IMG/VR virus record: IMGVR_UViG_3300022562_000051
Coordinates: 1-64,000 of that record
Reading direction: 5' to 3' (one strand)
DNA: 64,000 nt
Source of the DNA: a virus
The notes beneath the pieces were generated by a model. That model searched no databases. It was not told where the DNA came from and worked only from the letters and a program-made list of their open reading frames with translations. Below, piece after piece: positions 1 through 59,004 of this stretch. Position numbers and translations under genes: made by a program. How positions within the stretch are numbered: the first letter of the stretch is position 1; every line of letters starts with the position of its first letter.

Positions 1-59
1 GCATACCTACTATCCTCAAAAGTTAGTGTTTCTCGGTTCGAATCCGAGGTTGTCTACCA
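1..59 (+). tRNA. Partial tRNA, anticodon CAA (Leu codon box)
   Basis: This is the 3' part of a tRNA cut by the window start. It shows the end of a D-arm, an anticodon loop CTCAAAA (anticodon CAA), a T-arm with loop TTCGAAT and an encoded CCA at 57-59. The anticodon stem CTATC/GTTAG has a T-T mismatch at pair 30-40. The variable region is only 5 nt (TGTTT), although bacterial tRNA-Leu normally has a long variable arm, so the amino acid is uncertain. The acceptor 5' strand lies outside the window. Confidence 0.75.
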
Positions 60-63
60 ATAC

Positions 64-141
64 GCAAACGTGAAGGGAATTGGCATACCTACTTGGTCGA
101 GAGCCAAGTGTTTGTGGGTTCGACTCCCACCGTTTGCACCA
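64..141 (+). tRNA. tRNA, probable anticodon GAG (Leu codon box), short variable loop
   Basis: A complete cloverleaf: perfect 7-bp acceptor GCAAACG/CGTTTGC, D-arm containing GG, anticodon stem CTTGG/CCAAG, T-arm GTGGG/CCCAC with loop TTCGACT, and encoded CCA. The anticodon loop TCGAGAG puts GAG at 34-36 but has C rather than T at position 33. The variable region is 5 nt, not the long arm expected of Leu or Ser tRNAs. The D-arm and variable loop closely resemble those of the partial tRNA just upstream, so the two are probably related copies. The tRNA fold is clear but the amino acid is not. Confidence 0.8.
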
Positions 142-145
142 ATTA

Positions 146-337
146 GCTGAGTCGAGCTATCGCGGGAAACCGAGGAAGTTCGCGACTGGCGCGGAAATCG
201 TGTGGGAGCCGAAAGGCGTCTTACCACCGTGATATAGCCAGCAACACAAACAGAGCGTGGGAAGTTTCCGCTTAGACGTTCGGGTTGTGGCAAAGATGAA
301 TGGTAGCATAGAACAGAATCGCGGCTACGGACTCAGC
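146..337 (+). ncRNA. rnpB: Candidate miniature RNase P RNA (rnpB-like)
   Basis: A 192-nt region between two tRNAs carries the RNase P RNA core in the right order. P1 is a perfect 8-bp end-to-end helix (146-153/330-337). P2 is GCTATC/GGTAGC (156-161/302-307). P3 shrinks to CGG-GAAA-CCG (163-172). CR-I is GAGGAAGT (172-179). P4 pairs 177-185 with 319-326 and keeps a single bulged T (179), matching the universal bulged U69 of E. coli M1. P5 is CTGGC/GCCAG (186-190/237-241). CR-V appears as AGATGAATG (294-302) then ACAGAA (313-318), with P2's 3' strand immediately after GATGAAT exactly as in M1. M1 is 377 nt; here most of the specificity domain is missing. The identification rests on motif order and base pairing read by eye. 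The alternative is a decayed or mimic RNA without activity. Confidence 0.72.
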
Positions 338-4622: not shown

Positions 4623-5072
4623 ATGAATACCCTATATATTATTAGAGGTCTGCCGGGTTCCGGCAAGTCCACGTTGGCAAGGAAGCTGGCAGATCGTTAT
4701 AGTTGCAACTATTACGAGGCAGACCAGTATTTCATGGTAGAAGGTGAATACAAGTTCGATCCGACCAAGCTGCATCAGGCGCATTCAGCTTGCTACAGGA
4801 ATGTTGCGGGTGATATTGCCAATGGTCGCGATGCTATCGTGTCGAACACGTTCACCACGATCAAGGAATTGCGCGATTATTTCCAGTTGGCGAATGACTA
4901 TGGTTGTGCGCTGGAAATCTTCGAATGCACTGGTAACTACGGTTCGATCCACAACGTGCCAGAAGCTTCGATTCAGCGTATGCGGGATCGTTGGGTTTCT
5001 TCGGATGACTTGTGGGAGTACGGTGAAAACTTTCAGCGTCTTAAGACGATGATAATGACTGAGTATTGTTGA
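4623..5072 (+). CDS. P-loop kinase (AAA_33 / polynucleotide-kinase-like)
   Basis: A 149-aa protein starting MNTLYIIRGLPGSGKST, a Walker A motif at residues 8-16 placed right at the N-terminus as in small nucleoside and polynucleotide kinases. YEADQYF follows with an acidic residue usual for phosphate-transfer kinases, and VSNTF occupies the Walker B-like region. Arginines near the C-terminus (QRMRDRW) could form the lid. It directly precedes an RNA ligase and a phosphoesterase, so a 5'-OH polynucleotide kinase role in RNA repair is likely but inferred. AAGGGAAG lies upstream of the ATG. Confidence 0.78.
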   Translation: MNTLYIIRGLPGSGKSTLARKLADRYSCNYYEADQYFMVEGEYKFDPTKLHQAHSACYRNVAGDIANGRDAIVSNTFTTIKELRDYFQLANDYGCALEIFECTGNYGSIHNVPEASIQRMRDRWVSSDDLWEYGENFQRLKTMIMTEYC

Positions 5073-5073
5073 C

Positions 5074-5958
5074 ATGTGTGATATCAAGCATTTGCGGAAT
5101 TTCGCAGAGTCCAACCCCGAGTTGGTGACTGTGCGTATTTCCATACGCCACCCTCGCTTGCGAGTGGTGAAGTACAAGAACAAGGTTTTCTACAAGAATC
5201 TCTGGACGCCAGAGTTAGAGGAAATGCGCGGTCTTGTAGTTGACGAGGATTGGAACGTAGTTGTCCGTCCTTTCAAAAAGATTTACAATCGCTTTGAAAA
5301 CGGAACTGATATGGCACCGGAGACTTCGGTTGTTGCGGTGCGCAAGATCAACGGGTTCATGGCGGCAGTGACCAAGAATCCTGAGTATGGAACTATCGTT
5401 TCGACTACGGGTTCGCTCGACTCGCCATTCGTAGCGATGGCAGAAGAGTCTCTTGATGGGCTATTGTCCTTTAAGGGACTTGTCGAGAACGTTACTTATC
5501 TCTTCGAAATCGTCCATCAAGACGATCCACATATCATCGAAGAGAAGATCGGTCCTTACCTGATCGGTGCGCGTTGCGTACATTCAGGAATGATACTGAC
5601 CGAGTGTGACCTTGACTTGTTGGCGAACGACATGCAGGGCGTTATGCGTCCTGAGTGGAAGGTTTGCCGATTCAAGGATGTGGTGGAAGAGGTTCACTCT
5701 TGCAAGCATGAAGGCTTTGTGGTCTATGATCGCAAGGGACATTCTCTCAAGATCAAGTCGCCTTACTACCTGACCAAGAAATTCTTCTCTCGCGTAAGAG
5801 CCGAGAAGCTGACTGTGGAATGGTTAGAGGAAAAGCGTGGAAACTTCGATGAAGAGTTCTACGGATTGATTGATTATTTGGCATTGAACCGTGATACTTT
5901 TGTTTCGCTTGATCAACATCAGCGTCGGAAGTTCATTGAGGAATACCTCGCCCAATGA
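5074..5958 (+). CDS. RNA ligase of the T4 Rnl1 type
   Basis: A 294-aa nucleotidyltransferase. Motif I is KING at K91, the lysine that would become adenylylated; T4 Rnl1 has KEDG, so Asn replaces the usual Asp. Upstream, MRGLVVD and RPFKKIYN-F-E match the conserved RG-RPF-K-FN-E block of Rnl1-like ligases. Motif IV is EGFVVYD (about 212) and motif V LKIKSPYY (about 227). The protein is shorter than T4 Rnl1 (374 aa), lacking part of the C-terminal domain. It starts 1 nt after the kinase stop and overlaps the next ORF, so kinase, ligase and phosphoesterase form one unit. The predicted activity is ATP-dependent sealing of 5'-P and 3'-OH RNA ends, for example cleaved tRNA. Confidence 0.86.
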   Translation: MCDIKHLRNFAESNPELVTVRISIRHPRLRVVKYKNKVFYKNLWTPELEEMRGLVVDEDWNVVVRPFKKIYNRFENGTDMAPETSVVAVRKINGFMAAVTKNPEYGTIVSTTGSLDSPFVAMAEESLDGLLSFKGLVENVTYLFEIVHQDDPHIIEEKIGPYLIGARCVHSGMILTECDLDLLANDMQGVMRPEWKVCRFKDVVEEVHSCKHEGFVVYDRKGHSLKIKSPYYLTKKFFSRVRAEKLTVEWLEEKRGNFDEEFYGLIDYLALNRDTFVSLDQHQRRKFIEEYLAQ

Positions 5959-6017
5959 TGCTCGGTGAATACATTGCCATGAACGTAGTGGATATAAAAT
6001 TTCCAGAGGAAAGAAAA

Positions 6018-6581
6018 GTGGAAAGAGTATGGTTTACGTCCGATACCCATTTCGGACACAAGAATATTTTGCGGTTCTGTCCGCAGACTCGTCCTGTGAC
6101 TTCTATCGAAGAGCATGACGAGCGTCTAATTGCAAACTGGCAGTCTCAGGTTTCTCCGCAGGATCGTGTCTACCATCTTGGTGACATGTTCTTCTGCAAC
6201 GGAGAACGCGCTCGGCGCATCCTTGATCGTCTGCCGGGACAGATTCATCTTATCTACGGAAACCACGATAAGGTGATTTCTTCCAATGCAGACATTCGTT
6301 CGCGATTCGTTGCAGTCCATGACTACAAGGAAATTCGACTGGACGATATCAAGGTCTGTCTGTTTCACTTCCCTATCCATGAGTGGCATCAGGTTCATCG
6401 TGGCTCGTTCCATCTGTACGGACACGTACATGGATCGGTCAAGCTGCCGGGACGCGCTATGGACGTTGGTGTAGACTCGCGTCCTGACGGCGACATGCTG
6501 TTGTGGTCTTGGGAAGAGATTAAGGCGCGACTGATCGTGCGTGAGCATGGTGTTCACCACGGCAAGACTCATATGGAGTAA
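6018..6581 (+). CDS. Calcineurin-like metallophosphoesterase
   Basis: A 187-aa enzyme with the full metallophosphoesterase motif set: SDTHFGH (D-x-H), HLGDMFF (GD), YGNHD, HFPIHEW and GHVHG. The GTG at 6018 was chosen because GAGGAAAG lies just upstream and the product then begins directly at the first beta strand (ERVWFTSDTH). An ATG at 5955 that overlaps the ligase stop would add 21 residues and is possible through translational coupling. As third member of the kinase-ligase-phosphoesterase set it may remove 2',3'-cyclic or 2'-phosphates from RNA ends; that substrate is inference. Confidence 0.85.
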   Translation: MERVWFTSDTHFGHKNILRFCPQTRPVTSIEEHDERLIANWQSQVSPQDRVYHLGDMFFCNGERARRILDRLPGQIHLIYGNHDKVISSNADIRSRFVAVHDYKEIRLDDIKVCLFHFPIHEWHQVHRGSFHLYGHVHGSVKLPGRAMDVGVDSRPDGDMLLWSWEEIKARLIVREHGVHHGKTHME

Positions 6582-19719: not shown

Positions 19720-19845
19720 ATGTTGTTCGACATTCTATTAGCAGTAGTCGGTGTTATCATCGGCTGGCATTTCCCACAGCCGCTTTGGGCAAAGGCAGCT
19801 TGGGCAGCAATCACGGCTTGGATTCAAAAGATTCGTGATCGGTAA
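19720..19845 (+). CDS. Small Trp-rich membrane peptide (41 aa)
   Basis: An ideal ribosome binding site (AGGAG, 6 nt before ATG) precedes an ORF encoding MLFDILLAVVGVIIGWHFP and then a Trp/Ala-rich amphipathic helix ending in KIRDR. One membrane segment is likely. It sits between the thermonuclease and the tmRNA. The function is unknown. Confidence 0.6.
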   Translation: MLFDILLAVVGVIIGWHFPQPLWAKAAWAAITAWIQKIRDR

Positions 19846-19854
19846 GTTTTATTG

Positions 19855-20160
19855 TGGTATGAGGTAAAGCGAAGGCGTTTCGGACGCGGGTGCGAATCCC
19901 GCCTGCTCCACCACGAAAGACTCTCACTCCTAGATGCGCAGAAGTTGAGTTCTTACTGCGATACACGGAGAGCAAAACTCTGAGAGTCTTTCGTAATGGG
20001 GCAGAAATAGATTCGACGGGATGAGATAGCGGCACGGACCACAGGATAGGCGACTAACCTAATTAGCGCAAAACGAGTAAAGGCAAACGAAGATACCTTT
20101 CATGAGATGGCACTAGCTGCCTGATCGGAGTTTGACCCACTTGGCAACAGGACGGGTCTG
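19855..20160 (+). ncRNA. ssrA: Circularly permuted two-piece tmRNA
   Basis: The acceptor piece comes first: TTTCGGACGCGGG, T-arm GCGGG/CCCGC with loop TGCGAAT, acceptor strand CTGCTCC (19903-19909), A and encoded CCA (19911-19913). An intervening segment (19914-19997) follows. It is bounded by a perfect 14-bp inverted repeat (19913-19926/19981-19994). The coding piece then begins GGGGCAG (19998-20004), which pairs with CTGCTCC, followed by the conserved ATTCGACGGG. The reading frame GCA...TGA at 20083-20124 encodes the tag ANEDTFHEMALAA, ending in the Ala-Leu-Ala-Ala type recognised by ClpXP. This gene order is that of alphaproteobacterial permuted tmRNAs, matured into two RNAs held by the acceptor and neighbouring helices. 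It would rescue stalled ribosomes with host SmpB; no smpB is seen here. The exact 5' end is uncertain. Confidence 0.92.
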
Positions 20161-20189
20161 GTGAGGGGAGCAATCCCCTCGCCATTTTT
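20159..20189 (+). terminator. Terminator of the tmRNA
   Basis: A 9-bp stem GGTGAGGGG/CCCCTCGCC with loop AGCAAT followed by ATTTTT, directly downstream of the tmRNA coding piece. Confidence 0.85.
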
Positions 20190-20214
20190 GTCGCCCTACA
20201 TGGAGATTACTAAC

Positions 20215-20760
20215 ATGCGACGACTGATGATTATTGTGATGATGATGCTGTTCAGTTTTAATGCAAAGGCAGAAGTAGATATTATTCCTCTTGAGTTGCT
20301 AGAAGACTTAATCACTTCGATTGATATTCCAGCACCGATACCACTGCCGGTAGACGAGAAAGAGCAGGAATGTCTGGCTAAGAACATTTACTTCGAAGCT
20401 CGCAATGAGCCATATGAAGGCAAGCTTGCAGTAGCTACGGTCACGCGCAATCGTGTGGAATCCGAAAGGTATCCAGACACGTATTGTGATGTTGTGTGGC
20501 AAATTACCAAGCGTAAGGACAATGGCAAGAAAGTTGCTCAGTTCTCATGGACGCTCGACGGCAAGCCTGACAACCCATACAACTTAGAACTATATCAGGA
20601 AGCTTTAAGAATAGCGGAAGAAGTCTTGCGTTACGGCAAAAAGTCTGATATAATTGGAGACATGGTGTACCATTACCATGCTGTCTATGTACAGCCGAAG
20701 TGGTCGCGATACATGAAAAAGGTTACTAGAATTGGTAATCATATCTTTTATAGAAGTTAA
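20215..20760 (+). CDS. Exported SleB-type cell wall hydrolase
   Basis: A 181-aa protein. It has a signal peptide MRRLMIIVMMMLFSFNAKA and then a short Pro-rich spacer. The hydrolase domain has CLAKNIYFEARNEPYEGKLAVATVTRNR with the likely catalytic Glu in YFEAR, followed by QFSWT, YHAVYVQPKWS and IGNHIFY. These are the hallmarks of the Hydrolase_2 (SleB/CwlJ) family, found as endolysins or transglycosylase-like enzymes in many phages of alphaproteobacteria. ATG 20215 with GGAG upstream was chosen over earlier in-frame starts that lie in the tmRNA terminator. The signal peptide suggests export through Sec without a holin. Confidence 0.88.
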   Translation: MRRLMIIVMMMLFSFNAKAEVDIIPLELLEDLITSIDIPAPIPLPVDEKEQECLAKNIYFEARNEPYEGKLAVATVTRNRVESERYPDTYCDVVWQITKRKDNGKKVAQFSWTLDGKPDNPYNLELYQEALRIAEEVLRYGKKSDIIGDMVYHYHAVYVQPKWSRYMKKVTRIGNHIFYRS

Positions 20761-50449: not shown

Positions 50450-53347
50450 ATGACAGACACAGTTAATATTGGTGCGGTTCAAACCACCAACACGTTTGGT
50501 GAGTGGGTAATACAGACCAACCTAGCTAAAGATGACCTCAATGAGATTGCTCGCGGCAACTTCATTAAGCCTACCGGAAACGTTCGTATTAACGTTGGTC
50601 CGCTTCTTTTGGCTTGCACAAGTGGAACCTCGCTCGACGTTACTGCTAATGCCAAGATTGCTGGACAGTTGCAAGTCAAGAACATCCAGCAGGACGGTGG
50701 TGGATCATTCTTCTATTCTGACTCTCCTGACATTCAGTTCCGCGAAAGGACTGGAAGTTTCCATGCCAACGGCAATACCAGCACGGTCTATTTCCGCAAT
50801 AATGTCTTTATCTCAGCCGCAAACATAAACGCCAACGGTTTCATTGAAACGACTGGCGTATATTCCAACAATGATCTGTTGCTGAATGTAGCTAATGTCC
50901 TGACTGTGGGCAACTCTAATACCAATTATGCGGTCAATGTAACCTCTAATCTGGTTGTCACGCAGAACAGCACCACTGGAAATCTGGTGGTTTCGGAATT
51001 GGCTAACATTGCAACTGGCAACATCGTTGTCGCAAATGTAGCTACATTGAATGTCAATGCTGTCGGCGCAATTGCTACGGTTGCTAACGCGACCATCTAC
51101 AACGCAGCCGCTCAGAACGTTCAGACAGTGATGTTGAATGTTACCACTCGCGCCAATGCTGTACTGGCTAACATCGTCACCGCAAATGTCGGTAGCTTGA
51201 ATGTAGCCGCAACGGGTGGCGTAGCCAACTTTGCCAACGTATCCATTGCTAACAGTGTGACTACCAATGCTGCCGCTGGCATATTGAATGTTACCACTCG
51301 CGCTAATGCGGTTCTTGCTAACATTACCACAGCCAACGTTGCAACACTGAATGTCAATGCTTCGGGTGCGCAAGCCGTTGTTGCTAATCTGACTGTAAGC
51401 AACGTAGCCGCAGCCAACGTTCAGAGTGGCGTTCTGCGCGTGACCGGTCAGGCTAACGCAGCTACACTGAATGTGTCATCCACAGCCAACATTGCTGTGG
51501 GTAACATTGCGAATGTTTACTCAGCTAACGCAGAAGTTTATGTGGCGAACGTCAAGACGCGCCTCAACGCAACAACAGCTAACATCGGAACGCTTGAACT
51601 AAGTGACATTAACATTCTCACTGGTAATGTTACTACTCGCCTGAATGCCGCCCTGATCAACGTAACAACTGCAAATGTCGCTACGTTGAATGTTCGTGCG
51701 GCTGGTGCTGTAGCTAACATTGCCAATGCAAATATTGCAAATGCTGCAATAGCGAATGCGCAGATTGATGTGGGTAACTTCGCCACTCGTATGAATGCGG
51801 CGACGGCTAACATCACAAATCTGTTGGTCACTGACCTGACAGTAAGTGGTTCTCTTTCGGCTCCCGCTGAATCTAACGAAGTTTCTTATCGTCTTCGTGC
51901 CGCTTCCAGCGGAAAGGGTGATGGTTGGTTTGGTGTAAATCAGGGTGGTGCTAATGGTAATGCACAAATCCTGTTTGATTCTGCTGCGTGGGCATGGAAA
52001 CTAAGTGCTAACAATCTGGCTGATCCAACTGGTAATACCATTCTCAGCTTGGCAAATGTTAAGACGGCTTATGCTACGGATTCCGGCAACGTTGCAACTC
52101 TGACTCTCACTAAGGGTGCAAACGATAACGCGGTAGCTGCATACGCTAAAGCCAACGGCGCTGCTAACACAGTGCGCGTTTCGGCAAATGGTACGGCTAC
52201 GATTTCACAGGTTCAGTTGAACTTTGTTAACTCAGCATCCATTAACGTTGCTGTGTCGGCAGGCGCGGGTGGTGCGGCGGGTAATGCTAACATTACTTTC
52301 ACTGCAAACTCTTCGAATCCTGAACTGTTGGGACCACAAGGAACCACTGGCGCACAAGGCACAACTGGTGTTCAGGGTGTACAGGGTACTGCGGGTTATA
52401 TTGGTTCTGACGGTGCGCAAGGTATTCAGGGTTTGCAAGGTACCACTGGTACACAAGGTGCAACGGGTACGCAGGGTGCAACCGGCACTCAAGGTACTAC
52501 GGGTACTACGGGTACGCAAGGCGCAACAGGCGCACAGGGTACTCAAGGTATTCAGGGTCGCCAAGGAACAACCGGTTCGCAAGGCGCAACGGGTACACAA
52601 GGTGTGCAAGGTACTGCTGGCACGATTGGTGTTGACGGTGCGCAGGGTGCAACCGGTGCGCAGGGTGTGCAAGGTATTCAGGGTCGGCAGGGTGCAACAG
52701 GCGCACAAGGTACGACTGGTGCGCAAGGTACGACTGGCGCAACAGGTATTCAAGGTGCAACCGGTACACAGGGTGCAACTGGTACGACTGGTTCACAGGG
52801 TACAACCGGTGCGCAGGGTACAACTGGTACAACCGGTTCGACTGGTGCGCAAGGTGCAACCGGTGTACAGGGTATTCAGGGTATCACTGGTCCGTCTACC
52901 GCTATTCTTGCTTCGGCATATTCCAGCGGTTCGTACTATCCAGTCATGGTTGCAACCACCGGTTCCAACCAGACGCCACGTTGCTGTACCTCTATTCTGA
53001 TTTACAGTTCTGGTACTCTGAGTGCGACGGACTTCTCCGCAACTTCGGACGCTCGACTCAAGAGTGTTGAGGGTACGGTTGAAGAAGCAACCTTCAAGCT
53101 ATGCACCATGAGTGGCGTCTACTACAGGTGGAATGAACACGCAAAGGATATTGGTATCATTGATCGTGAACGTCCTGACCGCTTGGAGATTGGATTGCTC
53201 GCACAAGAAGTTCAAAATGTTCTTCCAGAGGCTATCTACACGGATGACAGAGGATATCTACGAATCACTTATGATCGTCTGGTTCCGGTACTCATCGAAG
53301 CAATCAAGGAATTGAACGAAAGAGTCAAGAAGCTAGAGGGGAATTAA
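50450..53347 (+). CDS. Tail fibre with collagen-like stalk and S74 intramolecular chaperone
   Basis: A 965-aa protein. The N-terminal part (to about 470) is made of repeating strands rich in Asn, Ala, Thr and Val (ANVATLNV-type repeats) that suggest a triple beta-helix. A globular part (about 470-625) follows, then a collagen-like stalk of Gly-x-x triplets at about 627-810 with Gln, Thr and Ala and hardly any Pro. The C-terminus (from about 865) is a peptidase S74 chaperone: SDARLKS carries the Ser-Lys dyad, and [17 protein letters not shown] and [20 protein letters not shown] complete it. The chaperone trimerises the fibre and then cuts itself off. Confidence 0.9.
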
Positions 53348-53348
53348 T

Positions 53349-54689
53349 ATGCCTCGCGTGGCTAATTCATATCCAATCAAGCTTACTGATGTTATCAATG
53401 CGTACACTTATGATTCTTCATCTATCGTAAGAACTGATACTTTCACGACAGTTGCCAATGGCTCGGTTACTGCACCATCCACTGCTGCTTGGTGTAAGAT
53501 TGAGCTTTGGGGTGGTGGTGGCGGTGGTCGCGGGTACAATTCCATTGGCTCACAATACGGTGGTGGTGGCGGTGGCTACGTATCATATATTGTTCCAGTA
53601 GAAGGTGGTGTCACCACCATGGGATATCGCGTTGGTAATGGTGGAGCGGGTGGTGCGGCTGTCACTGGTTCTGGTGGTATAGGTTCGACGGGTGGATTTA
53701 GTCACGCTAATGGTGTTCCCGGTTTAGATGATACTTTTGTAGGCACACTATATGCATACGGTGGTAAACCGGGATATAACGTTGCTCCATCAACCGGTGG
53801 ATTTTATTCACTCGGCGGCGCACCAGATCAAAATATTACTACTATAGATTCGGATGGTGGTAGTGCCGTATTGGTGCCAAATTGTACTGGTCAAGCGGGA
53901 GCTAATGGAACAACAACCACAGGTGGAACTGGTGCAAATGGTGGTGCTGGTGGTTCATCCAGCGGCGCGGCTGGTACCGCACCGGGGGGCGGCGGCGCAC
54001 CGGGATATTCCAGTGGTGTCGTTGGTGGTGCTGGCGCACAAGGTAAGGTTGTATTCACTTGGTATGGTAAAAGGACAAGTGGAGTAACACTTCGTTCATT
54101 CTTGTCAGGTGGCTCCTATGTTCCACCAAGTGCTGTTGGTGACAGTGGAAAGATTCCTACCAGTGGTACGTTAAAGATTAGTGATTTTAAGGGTGCGGAT
54201 GCAATAGGCTATTATGCCAACAACGTGCCAAATGGCATTTATGATTACAACGCATTCTTGTTCTATGGTAGTGCCGAAAACAGCGCAGGCGGGAGTGCAA
54301 CAGCATATTCTAGCATAAACATCGCTGCAAACGGCATATTCTACGCGGGTTTGACCGATGGAAGCCCTAGCAATGATGTGCAACGTTGGATGGAAAGATT
54401 TAAAACTATTGCCTATTCAACCCTAACTGATGACTTTGACGTTCTATGGAATCCTGTAATTAAATTTGGAACTACTATGACGGCTGGTAGTTCATCTGCA
54501 AATACATGGATACAAGCCAGCACAAATCCAAAATGGTTGCTTTACGCAGACCAATTCGGTAATGGTACCACAACTTCTTACATGAAAGGATATCTGGCAT
54601 TTCGCAGAAGAAGCGATAACGTCACGGTGGCGAATGTGTATTGTAATGTTTATGCGTATGCTTTAGTTTGGACGGAAGACACAAAATGA
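53349..54689 (+). CDS. Glycine-rich tail fibre/adhesin
   Basis: A 446-aa protein. The N-terminal linker is followed by WCKIELWGGGGGGRGYNSIG and many Gly-rich loops up to about residue 240, as in adhesin tips whose polyglycine helices carry receptor-binding loops. YGKRTSGVTLRSFLSGGSYVP then separates a C-terminal domain (about 280-446) with regular strands. It starts 1 nt after the S74 fibre gene, so the two may assemble together. The receptor is unknown. It overlaps the next gene by 4 nt. Confidence 0.75.
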   Translation: MPRVANSYPIKLTDVINAYTYDSSSIVRTDTFTTVANGSVTAPSTAAWCKIELWGGGGGGRGYNSIGSQYGGGGGGYVSYIVPVEGGVTTMGYRVGNGGAGGAAVTGSGGIGSTGGFSHANGVPGLDDTFVGTLYAYGGKPGYNVAPSTGGFYSLGGAPDQNITTIDSDGGSAVLVPNCTGQAGANGTTTTGGTGANGGAGGSSSGAAGTAPGGGGAPGYSSGVVGGAGAQGKVVFTWYGKRTSGVTLRSFLSGGSYVPPSAVGDSGKIPTSGTLKISDFKGADAIGYYANNVPNGIYDYNAFLFYGSAENSAGGSATAYSSINIAANGIFYAGLTDGSPSNDVQRWMERFKTIAYSTLTDDFDVLWNPVIKFGTTMTAGSSSANTWIQASTNPKWLLYADQFGNGTTTSYMKGYLAFRRRSDNVTVANVYCNVYAYALVWTEDTK

Positions 54690-55021
54690 TTCTAATACAT
54701 CACGTAAATGTCTTGTTTGACAAGTCCACATGGCATTTTGATCCTTCGTTGCAGGACAAGGTGTGGGATAAGATCGTCTATATGATCGTGACTCGCGACA
54801 TAGACATGAATCTTCCAAGAACACCAGTTCAATCATCGGTACACGAATTGATTCTGCCAGCACCGACGCCGGGAAACTTCATTCCATTTGACGAGGTTGA
54901 TGAGGGGGTTGTGATTGGTTGGATTGATCAGCACGATAACACGCTTCTCGACAGTCAGGATGAAAATACTAAGGCACTGGTAGGTAGGAATAAAAAGCTT
55001 TATAGGTTTAATGTGTCATGA
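54686..55021 (+). CDS. Small fibre-cluster protein, possible chaperone or assembly factor
   Basis: A 111-aa protein starting at ATG overlapping the adhesin stop; an upstream in-frame start adds six doubtful residues. It contains HHVNVLFDKSTWHFDPSLQD and the pattern RTPVQSSVHELILPAPTPG. The tight coupling between fibre and sulfotransferase suggests a fibre assembly or modification helper, but no family is recognised. Confidence 0.55.
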   Translation: MILIHHVNVLFDKSTWHFDPSLQDKVWDKIVYMIVTRDIDMNLPRTPVQSSVHELILPAPTPGNFIPFDEVDEGVVIGWIDQHDNTLLDSQDENTKALVGRNKKLYRFNVS

Positions 55022-55722
55022 TCGTATCCATACCTAAAAGAATAATTGTACTTGATGTTCCGCGCACAGGAACTCATACTCGCTACGAGGTTTTTCGTCA
55101 GGCGGGAGTTTCGGCTGACGTTCGTAACATCAATCACTTCACGATGAATGATGTGACCAAGTTTGCTCAAGCTGGTGATGACCATCCCATGTTTCGTGGA
55201 AAGGGAGTAAACGCTCAGAATTTGTCCACGTTCAAGGTCTTTGCGTTCTATCGTGATCCTTTTGACAGAGTGATTTCGTGCGTCAATCACCTTCGCCGTG
55301 GTCGCCTACACGCTCGCTTCTTTCATGCGTTTTGGGGTAATGACGTAAGGATCAAGTGTACCTCTCGTCTAGCCTATGAGGACTGGACGCCAGAAATGAA
55401 GCAGCTACACGATGAGATTCCGCTTATTGAGGTTTTCCGAAAATTCCGCTACTTCTTTGAGAGGGGCGTGTTCGCGAAGACACACAAGCCGTGGCTGACT
55501 GATGGAGTAATACCACTTAATTACCATAACTTTAATACTGAAATGGCGACGTTATTGGCTGAGTTCGATGTGGATAGCAGTACAGTGACCATTCCACAGT
55601 TGAATGGCGTGACGCTTGATCCGCAACTCGACAGCCTATCGCCAAGCGAGGAGTCGGAGATTCGGGCATACTGTCAGGAAGACTATACTTTCCTCGCCAG
55701 CAAGGGCATAACTTTCTCCTAA
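55018..55722 (+). CDS. Sulfotransferase-like protein
   Basis: A 234-aa protein. LDVPRTGTHTRYEVFRQAG near residue 12 is the 5'-phosphosulfate loop (P-x-x-G-T) of PAPS-dependent sulfotransferases. FAFYRDPFDRVISCVNHLRR near residue 79 is the 3'-phosphate-binding R-D-P-x-x-R motif. FAKTHKPWL and C-terminal SPSEESEIRAYCQEDYTFL resemble the Sulfotransfer_2 family. Its placement inside the fibre gene cluster suggests that it sulfates a virion protein or a surface glycan. Substrate and activity are inference. Confidence 0.78.
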   Translation: MIVSIPKRIIVLDVPRTGTHTRYEVFRQAGVSADVRNINHFTMNDVTKFAQAGDDHPMFRGKGVNAQNLSTFKVFAFYRDPFDRVISCVNHLRRGRLHARFFHAFWGNDVRIKCTSRLAYEDWTPEMKQLHDEIPLIEVFRKFRYFFERGVFAKTHKPWLTDGVIPLNYHNFNTEMATLLAEFDVDSSTVTIPQLNGVTLDPQLDSLSPSEESEIRAYCQEDYTFLASKGITFS

Positions 55723-55725
55723 ATA
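55719..55725 (+). promoter_or_regulatory. Late promoter element CTAAATA
   Basis: CTAAATA overlaps the sulfotransferase stop, 25 bp upstream of the next gene. It starts the second fibre transcription unit. Confidence 0.55.
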
Positions 55726-55750
55726 ATCAATAAATCACCGGAAGACCGCC

Positions 55751-56086
55751 ATGGCACTATACGTAGAACTTACAATGGATCAGGGAACCACGTTTTCAAG
55801 TAGCGTGGACTTGACCAACGATGACGCCACGCCGATTGACGTTACCGGTTATTCCTTTGTCTGCCAGATTCGTAAGTCTTATTACTCTTCCAACGCAACA
55901 GCTAATCTGACTGTTACTGTGGCTGATGCTGCGAATGGCAACGTTACACTAGGACTGGATGCTGCTAATACAGCCAACATTCGTGCTGGACGCTATTTGT
56001 ATGATCTTAAGATGACCACGGATGATGATCGCACCATTCGCGTTCTTGAAGGCATCATTACCATTACGCCACAGGTCAGTCAATGA
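55751..56086 (+). CDS. Fibre adaptor domain protein (BppU-N-like)
   Basis: A 111-aa beta-sandwich protein: [39 protein letters not shown], then [12 protein letters not shown] and a final strand [10 protein letters not shown]. This order of strands is common in small proteins preceding collagen-like fibres in T4-like phages and resembles the N-terminal domain of BppU. It probably connects the fibre to the baseplate. The stop overlaps the next ATG. Confidence 0.72.
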
Positions 56087-59004
56087 AAGTAACTGTTACA
56101 GAACAGAATGCAGTTGGTAGAGTAGGGCTATCGGCTGGCGCACCGGGAGCGCAAGGCTTAACGGGACCGCAGGGTGCCGATGGCATTCAGGGTTCCTCTG
56201 GCTATATTGGCGCGGATGGTGCGCAAGGTGCAACCGGTGCGCAGGGTGTTCAGGGACTTGATGGACTGTATGCCGCGCAGGGTATTCAGGGTGTTCAGGG
56301 AACAACTGGTACACAGGGTGCGACGGGTACACAGGGAACCGATGGCATACAAGGCACTACTGGCACACAAGGTGCAACAGGAACGCAAGGTACTACGGGT
56401 GCGCAAGGCGTACAGGGTTCGACTGGCTCGCAAGGTGTGCAGGGAACGACTGGTGTGCAAGGCGCAACCGGCGTTCAGGGTACACAGGGTATTCAGGGAT
56501 TGCAGGGTGTTCTCGGACAACCCGGCGACCAATACGTAACGACCTCTTCAAATTCGATTACGATTGAAAACTATCCTGCTGCAAATCCTCTTAATATCAC
56601 GATTGGAACTGGACTTGCTTACTCGGCTGGTCAGCTAATCATCGTTGCAAATGATGCGACACATTCTCTGGAAGGTACAATCACATCGTATGACTCTGGT
56701 ACTGGCGCAATCGTAATTGAAGTTACTACGATTACTGGTACTGGTACGTTTTCATCGTGGGACGTAAACCTTGGTGGTGTTCCCGGCGCGGACGGACCAC
56801 AAGGTATTCAGGGTCTACAAGGAACTACTGGAACGCAAGGTGCGACTGGTACACAAGGCGTACAAGGCACTACCGGCACTCAGGGTGTTCAAGGCACCAC
56901 AGGTACGCAGGGAACTACCGGTTCGCAAGGTGTACAGGGAACTACCGGAGCGCAAGGCGCACAGGGTACTACTGGTACACAAGGCGCAACAGGCGCACAA
57001 GGCGTTCAAGGAACTACTGGCACTCAAGGTGTTCAGGGAACTACCGGAACACAAGGTGTTCAAGGAACTACAGGAACGCAGGGTGCAACTGGCGCACAAG
57101 GTGTTCAAGGCACTACTGGTTCGCAGGGTATTCAGGGAACGACTGGTACACAGGGCGCAACGGGTACACAAGGTGTTCAAGGAACTACAGGTGCGCAAGG
57201 TGTTCAAGGCACTACCGGAACTCAAGGTGCAACTGGCACTCAGGGCGTACAGGGATCAACTGGCGCACAAGGTATTCAGGGATTGCAAGGTGTTCTCGGT
57301 TCTCCCGGCGATATCTATGCAACCACATCTGTTACCTCAATTACAATTGAAAATTATCCAGCGGGTAATCCTCTCAATCTAACCGTTGGTACTGGACTCG
57401 CATATTCGGCTGGTCAGACTGTTGTTATCGCTAATGATGCGACACACTCTCTGGAAGGTCTGGTTATCTCCTATGTAACTGGCACAGGCGCAATGTCTGT
57501 TCAGGTTTCCAGCGTCACTGGTACTGGCACGTTCGCATCGTGGGATGTAAACCTCGGCGGTACTCCCGGTGCAGATGGTCCGCAGGGTATTCAGGGATTG
57601 CAGGGAACGACTGGTACACAAGGTGCAACTGGTACGCAGGGTATTCAGGGAACCACTGGCTCGCAAGGTATTCAGGGTGTTCAAGGCACCACTGGAACAC
57701 AGGGTGCAACTGGATCGCAAGGCGTACAGGGTACTACCGGCACACAAGGTGCAACCGGTACGCAAGGTATTCAGGGAACGACAGGCGCACAAGGTGTCCA
57801 AGGCACTACTGGTACGCAAGGCGCAACCGGTACACAAGGCGTACAAGGTGCAACTGGTACACAGGGTGCTACTGGCGCACAGGGTGTGCAGGGAACGACT
57901 GGTACACAAGGCGCAACAGGCACACAGGGTGTACAGGGTGCAACAGGTGCGCAAGGTGTGCAGGGGACTACCGGCACTCAAGGCGCAACAGGCACACAAG
58001 GTATTCAGGGTACTACTGGAACACAAGGCGTACAAGGTACCACTGGCACACAGGGTGCAACAGGAACACAAGGTGTTCAAGGTGCAACCGGAACACAGGG
58101 TACAACTGGCGCACAAGGTGTACAGGGAACCACTGGTACTCAGGGTGCTACCGGTACGCAGGGTATTCAGGGTACAACAGGCGCACAAGGCGTACAAGGT
58201 ACTACCGGCATTCAAGGTGCGACAGGAACGCAGGGTGTTCAAGGCGTACAAGGTACTACTGGCGCACAGGGTGTACAGGGTACCACAGGAATTCAGGGTG
58301 CAACTGGTGTGCAAGGCGTTCAAGGAACCACTGGCGCACAAGGCATTCAGGGTCTACAGGGAACAACTGGTGTACAGGGTCTACAGGGTACCACTGGTTC
58401 GCAGGGTATTCAAGGTGTTCAGGGTACCACTGGTTCGCAGGGTGTTCAGGGTACTACTGGCGTACAGGGTATTCAAGGTGTTCAGGGTACCACTGGTTCG
58501 CAGGGTATTCAAGGTGTTCAGGGTACCACTGGCGTACAGGGTGTTCAGGGAACTACTGGTGTACAGGGCGTACAGGGAACTACTGGTTCGCAAGGTGTAC
58601 AGGGTATTCAAGGTACTGCCGGTCCTCGCGTACTCAACTATATCATTGATGGTGGTGGAACTACCATCACTACAGGTGCTACCGAAGCTGCACAATCCAA
58701 GGGATACATAATGGTAGCTAACTCGGCTGTCATTAGTGGCTGGCAAGCTTTTGGTAACACTTCTGGTTCGATCAACGTTGATATCTACACTGCGAGCTAC
58801 ACCAACTTCCCAACCATGACTAAGATTAGTGGTGGTGCGCAGACTCCAAGACTGGCAACTGCGCAGAAGGGTTCTGGCGACAATACTGGATGGAGTTCAG
58901 CCGTCATTGCTGCTGGTAACATCATTCAGTTCCGCGTCAACAGCAACCCAACAGTAACGGTGGATCGTGTCACGGTATCTCTGAATCTGATTATAACGAG
59001 TTAA
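56083..59004 (+). CDS. Long collagen-like tail fibre with repeated globular modules
   Basis: A 973-aa protein. After about 18 residues the chain becomes Gly-x-x triplets ([15 protein letters not shown]) in three blocks at about 19-150, 235-402 and 490-845, nearly without Pro. Between the blocks lie two copies of an about 80-residue module ([25 protein letters not shown] to WDVNLGG) that are about 80 percent alike by eye. A third, more distant copy is in the last fibre gene. The C-terminal about 110 residues form a jelly-roll-like tip. Stability without Pro suggests Gln/Thr-based triple helix packing, as in other phage collagens. Confidence 0.88.
56140..58625 (+). repeat. Collagen-coding tandem repeats
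   Basis: Short imperfect tandem repeats of 9 to 45 bp built from codons for Gly-Thr-Gln, Gly-Ala-Thr, Gly-Val-Gln and Gly-Thr-Thr. Blocks of this kind also occur at 52330-52885, 60136-61240, 61500-61930 and 63530-64000. Synonymous codons vary between repeats, which argues for old repeats under protein-level selection with some recent duplication. The shared DNA could support recombination between fibre genes. Confidence 0.85.

Follow-up and report, generated by a model that had tools for sequence, protein, structure and literature searches.

Positions 146-337, on the plus strand, of the 64,000-nucleotide stretch of viral DNA analysed here (hereafter the window) constitute a full-length RNase P RNA of 192 nt that is reduced to its catalytic domain. 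Its homology to RNase P RNA is near certain, while its activity is inferred. A first-pass annotation, made from sequence alone, had proposed at this place a strongly shortened phage RNase P RNA from which most of the specificity domain is gone, and had suggested as checks a relaxed Infernal search with the Rfam models and a covariance model built from relatives. Both checks were positive, and the proposal is supported by homology, by covariation and by genomic context. The Rfam model RNaseP_arch (RF00373) aligned over all of its positions (1-288 of 288) with 40.8 bits and an E-value of 2.2e-9 when 4 kb were searched, and gave its sole such match in the whole 172,580-base genome at the same RNA (E 2.2e-11). 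The RNA falls below the Rfam gathering score (40.8 vs 84 for RF00373), which is a detection threshold calibrated on full-size RNAs and not a structural feature. Covariance model R1, built from 33 relatives with the window left out (alignment A3), scored the RNA at 172.1 bits (E 4.6e-49) and found no other match across the 64 kb up to an E-value of 10; under the same model, 34 cellular RNase P RNA loci reached at most 47 bits.

The structure can be followed helix by helix along the plus strand, with pairing and two-sided changes scored in 24 relatives. P1 (8 bp, 146-153 with 330-337) has two-sided changes in all eight pairs, and its precise outer ends are positions 146 and 337. P2 (156-160 with 303-307) is 100% paired with two-sided changes in four of five pairs, and is followed by P3 (163-172), a 3-bp hairpin with a GAAA tetraloop that is likewise 100% paired. 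CR-I (172-182; family form GAGGAAG[T/C]TC[G/A]) leads into P4 (177-185 with 319-326), which carries a bulged U180 in its 5' strand, at a position set by the members having GAGGAAGCTC, and is 99.5% paired. P5 (186-190 with 237-241) is 100% paired, four of its five pairs showing two-sided changes; taken together, P1, P2, P3 and P5 are 91.7-100% paired with such changes in all four. P6 is a pseudoknot between GCGGAAA (191-197) and TTTCCGC (265-271), supported by two-sided changes in six of seven pairs and by a re-pairing test. A residual specificity-domain stem within 202-227 (202-205 with 224-227), seen in the 24-relative alignment, and a GAAA hairpin inside it (208-217) together replace P7-P14. 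Next comes J5/15 with GCAA (241-244), the region of E. coli A248, a motif also present in most members retrieved with patterns that did not require it. P15 (245-289; 245-249 with 285-289; 100% paired) encloses both L15 and P16. L15 (CGGGT, 281-285) offers a GGU for pairing with the tRNA 3' RCCA, and CGGGT is found in all 36 members that were not selected on it; P16 (253-281; 253-258 with 276-281; 99.3% paired, six of six pairs with two-sided changes) carries the 3' strand of P6 in its loop. CR-IV (AGATGAAT, 294-301) and CR-V (ACAGAA, 313-318) were recognised by sequence, are conserved in the family and stand with CR-I in the standard order.

The bulged U of P4, the GCAA of J5/15, the GGU of L15, CR-IV and CR-V are thus all retained. 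P17, which in type A RNAs holds the 3' strand of P6 in its loop, is absent from the window member, as is P18; in an alignment of a second subfamily, GGG and CCC flank the P6 strand (by eye). Folding of the single strand placed P4 and P6 wrongly, and RNAalifold was avoided because these two helices are pseudoknots. The boundaries given in the first-pass annotation, together with its P1 of 8 bp, P2, P3 with GAAA loop, CR-I, P4 with one bulged U and P5, all held. Its labelling of CR-V held only in part, in that ACAGAA is CR-V but AGATGAAT is CR-IV, and it had missed P6, P15 with its GGU loop, P16 and the residual specificity-domain stem.

In an alignment of 24 window-like sequences made with MAFFT and not fitted to structure (A2), 96.3% of cells are paired under the proposed structure and two-sided changes occur at 37 of 54 pairs; the covariation score is 0.587, vs 0.185 +/- 0.010 for shuffled alignments and at most 0.092 for slid structures, in which pairing drops to 30-40%. 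None of 500 shuffles reaches the observed value, whether for the score or for the paired cells. The signal is carried by P1, P2, P5, P6 and P16, and P4 shows compensatory changes at two pairs within the family. As the structure was derived from the window sequence, the paired percentage is slightly biased towards the window, while the two-sided changes are unaffected. A second set of 36 loci aligned to R1 gave 0.777 vs 0.183 when shuffled, although here the alignment had itself been fitted to the R1 model. An absence of covariation in P1, P2 and P4, which would have refuted the proposal, did not occur.

The family is set apart from cellular RNAs by the sequence of CR-I, which reads GAGGAAG[T/C]TC in all 63 distinct phage cores and GAGGAAAGTCC in 20 of 20 cellular type A RNAs and in four CPR RNAs, the two forms differing at two positions. 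Several of the retrieval patterns, from which most of the cores came, fixed part of CR-I; in two pattern scans run without any CR-I, most of the full-length loci added still show the phage form. In the ungapped register, the two pairs directly preceding the bulged U on its 5' side change from A-U to G-C and from G-C to U-G or C-G, and CR-V carries changes that match those in CR-I. Loss of a P4 base pair was rejected, since the ungapped register forms all eight pairs. Aligned from the bulged U, the swapped pairs correspond to A50 and G51 of Geobacillus RNase P; in that enzyme both catalytic metals are bound by the backbone phosphates of these two residues, and the adjoining U52 contacts the acceptor stem (PMC13254310). 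Because the metal-holding phosphates are not altered by the swaps, activity can be retained.

Far from standing alone, the RNA is a small representative of a widespread family, whose sizes, in loci with an automatically delimited P1, range from 192 to 300 nt. About 93 loci are known, the window and 92 others, with 63 distinct cores, and all of them are unannotated. They were collected by pattern scans of IMG/VR and one scan of 84,980 species genomes and checked with a covariance model. Among the stretches rejected in this process were L006, L007, L010 and L011, four of the ten from the first pattern scan, in which the rest of the RNA is missing, and likewise L019 and L028. BLAST identified one annotated phage, Stenotrophomonas phage DLP6 (KU682439.2, about 105.8 kb), which is counted among the 92; it has no annotation at the RNA, and a tRNA-Arg lies directly downstream. 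The DLP6 RNA matches the Rfam bacterial type A model (RF00010) with 54.7 bits (E 3.7e-14), the gathering score of 100 not being met, and the paper describing this phage lists 30 tRNAs but is silent on RNase P (PMC5349666). BLAST with other members revealed no further isolate phages, no plasmid match was found for the window RNA, and the 56-tRNA phage XacN1 gave no credible match within its first 50 kb, the only part searched. Some members come from contigs 277 to 494 kb long, and both the 635-kb phage LR745206 and the 735-kb phage LR756501 carry the RNA; the latter, the largest published phage, matches in size the largest genome of Al-Shayeb 2020, a paper in which RNase P is not mentioned. The scan of the 84,980 species genomes gave a single match, L131, on a 3-kb contig with 13 tRNAs (JAAXWV010000224.1) in a Candidatus Roizmanbacteria MAG, which is probably a misbinned phage fragment. 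CPR bacteria were rejected as the source of the family, as among 192 genomes of that phylum only L131 exceeds 38 bits, the maximum in the other 191 being 37.6 bits.

In the window RNA the specificity domain has shrunk to a stub of about 45 nt, and across the family the median distance from CR-I to J5/15 is 57 nt. CR-II-like strings were found in only one of the 63 cores and CR-III-like strings in only two. A locus on a 360-kb phage contig (L121, 11470-12119) combines the phage CR-I with a bacterial P18 and bacterial specificity-domain motifs, and scores 118.3 bits against RF00010, above the gathering score of 100. This locus ties the phage family to bacterial type A, and, being nearly bacterial type A with a phage CR-I, it might represent an evolutionary intermediate. 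By eye, an HNH-like open stretch is inserted in its RNA gene, and in three other members (L027, L030 and L106) the RNA gene is interrupted by long GIY-YIG-like open stretches; all four inserts resemble homing endonuclease genes.

The genomic context is that of phage tRNA genes. tRNAs occur within the fetched DNA at 80 of the 93 loci (about 14% of loci lack any), and the nearest tRNA lies within 10 nt at 46 of the 93, where random placement gave a mean of 1.8 and a maximum of 6 in 200 repeats; 1117 of the 1118 tRNAs share the strand of the RNA. In the window, all on the plus strand, a tRNA-Leu(GAG) with encoded CCA (64-141) ends 4 nt before the RNA, and the next gene downstream is a tRNA-Arg(CCT) (432-506), followed by a tRNA-Thr(CGT) (611-685), a tRNA-Ser(GGA) (1596-1685) and a tRNA with anticodon CAT by eye and 3' CCA encoded (1818-1891; Rfam tRNA, 54.3 bits). 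CCA is encoded in all five. An array of 34 tRNAs stands at the end of the window's contig (168681-172577), the last 144 bases of which are the same as its first 144 (window 1-144). Through these identical ends the contig maps as a 172,436-base circle with the array running across the join. This places the RNA 4 nt after the 34-tRNA array and midway through about 38 clustered tRNAs, in agreement with the earlier placement in the middle of a tRNA operon. The genome is T4-like, as judged by a baseplate wedge protein. No RnpA (Pfam PF00825) was recognised in it or anywhere in the 56 phage records checked, many of which are fragments, so that absence there is not proof.

Several other features of the window were observed. 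A permuted two-piece tmRNA at 19805-20215 (RF04321, 133 bits; tag ANEDTFHEMALAA proposed by ARAGORN) gives this phage one more RNase P substrate. At 1690-1812 lies a permuted tRNA-like element, with a T arm and CCGCACTCCCCA first and GGAGTGTGTAGTGTAATGGTAACACAG after them, enclosed by AGGAACCG/CGGTTCCT; it matches the Rfam YrlA (Y RNA-like) model weakly (24.9 bits), folds well (z -3.7) and may be a permuted tRNA or a Y RNA-like molecule. Between the tRNA-Arg and the tRNA-Thr, positions 517-606 hold a divergent tRNA-like gene (RF01852, 29 bits) that ARAGORN did not call. Consecutive genes at 4623-6581, near the tRNA cluster, encode a kinase-like protein (by eye), an RNA ligase (PHROG 562) and a phosphoesterase, and recall the T4-style tRNA repair set; two very long proteins that resemble tail fibres and contain collagen-like GXX repeats are encoded at 50450-59004.

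The reading favoured here is that a catalytic-domain-only RNase P RNA, probably together with the host RnpA, matures the phage tRNAs; this is likely, with activity inferred. The analysis shows that the RNA is present, how it is built and conserved, its family and its genomic context, and that a recognisable rnpA gene is lacking. No transcript or activity data exist, and transcription, catalysis, the use of RnpA, action in trans and phage tRNAs as the main substrates are all inferences. In the proposed course of events, a bacterial type A RNase P RNA would have been the ancestor; P7-P14 would have been lost to leave the 45-nt stub, and P17 and P18 lost in the window member, while all elements touching the cleavage site and the tRNA 3' end would have been kept. 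The RNA would be transcribed within the phage tRNA array and would fold via P1-P5, the P6 pseudoknot, P15 and P16. It would probably recruit the host RnpA, since the phage encodes none, and this protein would provide leader binding and function at low Mg2+. The 5' leaders of the phage pre-tRNAs would then be cut in trans, the encoded CCA meeting the GGU loop. The conservation of active-site and tRNA-contact residues extends to members whose retrieval patterns did not demand these residues. In published experiments an isolated E. coli catalytic domain cleaves substrates, with an efficiency that requires a P6-like pairing and not P18, and a P. furiosus catalytic domain deprived of P18 is active in the absence of both the specificity domain and protein (PMC5839562). 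The phage RNAs, with no specificity domain, a strong real P6 and an optional P18, fit these findings. Against the maturase reading, it is possible that host RNase P matures the phage tRNAs, as in T4, whose tRNAs are matured by the host enzyme and during whose infection the host rnpB is stable (PMC9697503); moreover, at two positions whose phosphates bind the catalytic metals the base differs (A to G, G to U/C), albeit in each case together with its partner, and about 14% of loci show no tRNA in the DNA fetched around them. Conceivable reasons for a phage to have its own RNA are the demand of 30-40 tRNAs, survival of host shut-off and an altered substrate preference. A bolder reading, in which the RNA works largely without a protein subunit or with an unrecognised phage protein, independently of host RNase P, is unlikely; if true, it would mean that large phages supply the 5' processing of their tRNAs themselves, by a ribozyme that has no specificity domain and a remodelled active-site helix.

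Competition for host RnpA had also been raised in the first-pass annotation, next to tRNA maturation. Such a decoy, an RnpA-binding catalytic domain that titrates host RnpA or competes with host RNase P without cutting, would be favoured by the lack of a phage rnpA in the 56 records; the remaining catalytic domain is the part expected to bind RnpA. However, the bulged U of P4, the GGU of L15 and the GCAA of J5/15 would be dispensable in a decoy, yet all three are kept despite strong divergence, and placement in tRNA arrays suits a maturase better, which leaves the decoy very unlikely. Equally improbable is a ribozyme for some other substrate, such as the permuted tmRNA, the odd tRNA-like elements or mRNAs: the permuted tmRNA and the atypical tRNA-like elements are indeed in the same genome, but the RNA is tightly linked to ordinary tRNAs at most loci.

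Two further alternatives can be all but excluded. A decaying pseudogene of a host rnpB acquired by the phage would account for an RNA shorter than the cellular ones and for the few relatives interrupted by endonuclease genes, but not for compensatory change in every helix in sets of 24 and 35 sequences, nor for a family-wide CR-I that was found in no cellular RNA checked. Cellular sequence misassembled into phage contigs, or misclassified as such, has to be considered as the records are mostly metagenomic and one member (L131) lies in a bacterial MAG contig. Against this, the family RNA is present in the isolate phage DLP6, the window's contig is T4-like, bears 34 tRNAs and has ends that overlap by 144 bases, and the pattern scan of the species genomes yielded only L131, itself on a tRNA-rich contig and without a counterpart above 37.6 bits in 191 other genomes of its phylum.

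No report of a viral RNase P RNA, and no exact phrase such as 'phage-encoded RNase P', was found in the open-access literature searched, subscription journals and preprints being outside its scope; a 2024 RNase P review has none in its passages on phages and viruses. A published search of megaphages with Rfam models recorded tRNAs and a tmRNA but nothing else (PMC8172020), as is to be expected of RNAs that score below the Rfam cutoffs, which explains this blind spot. A large natural family without specificity domain makes the minimal requirement of the ribozyme directly testable, and shows which near-universal positions of the metal-binding helix can be exchanged, namely two adjacent P4 pairs. 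With activity inferred, tRNA 5' processing would be added to the translation functions of huge phages.

Among known systems, bacterial type A RNase P RNA (RF00010, E. coli M1) shares with the window RNA the helix order P1-P6, P15 and P16, the three regions CR-I, CR-IV and CR-V and the GGU of L15. Unlike it, the window RNA has about half the length, a 45-nt stub in place of P7-P14 and no P17 or P18, and the phage RNAs have two adjacent P4 pairs swapped and are encoded within phage tRNA arrays. The minimal RNase P RNA of Pyrobaculum (type T / type P) similarly keeps the catalytic domain with the specificity domain nearly gone, a comparison that rests on its published description (PMC4919922) and not on Pyrobaculum sequences; but it is an archaeal chromosomal gene, whereas bacterial-type signatures mark the phage RNAs. 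The relatives indicate phages of bacteria (DLP6), and the DLP6 and L121 RNAs match bacterial type A best. Catalytic-domain constructs of E. coli and P. furiosus also lack the specificity domain, depend on a P6-like pairing (E. coli) and dispense with P18 (PMC5839562); in contrast to these laboratory truncations, the phage RNAs are natural and their real P6 is much longer (5-8 bp). Theta ribozymes are, like the window RNA with its inferred function, phage-encoded ribozymes of tRNA maturation. They are, however, HDV-like and cis-acting, with one per tRNA, and make 3' ends (PMC10879173), whereas the window RNA is a single, trans-acting candidate for the maturation of 5' ends.
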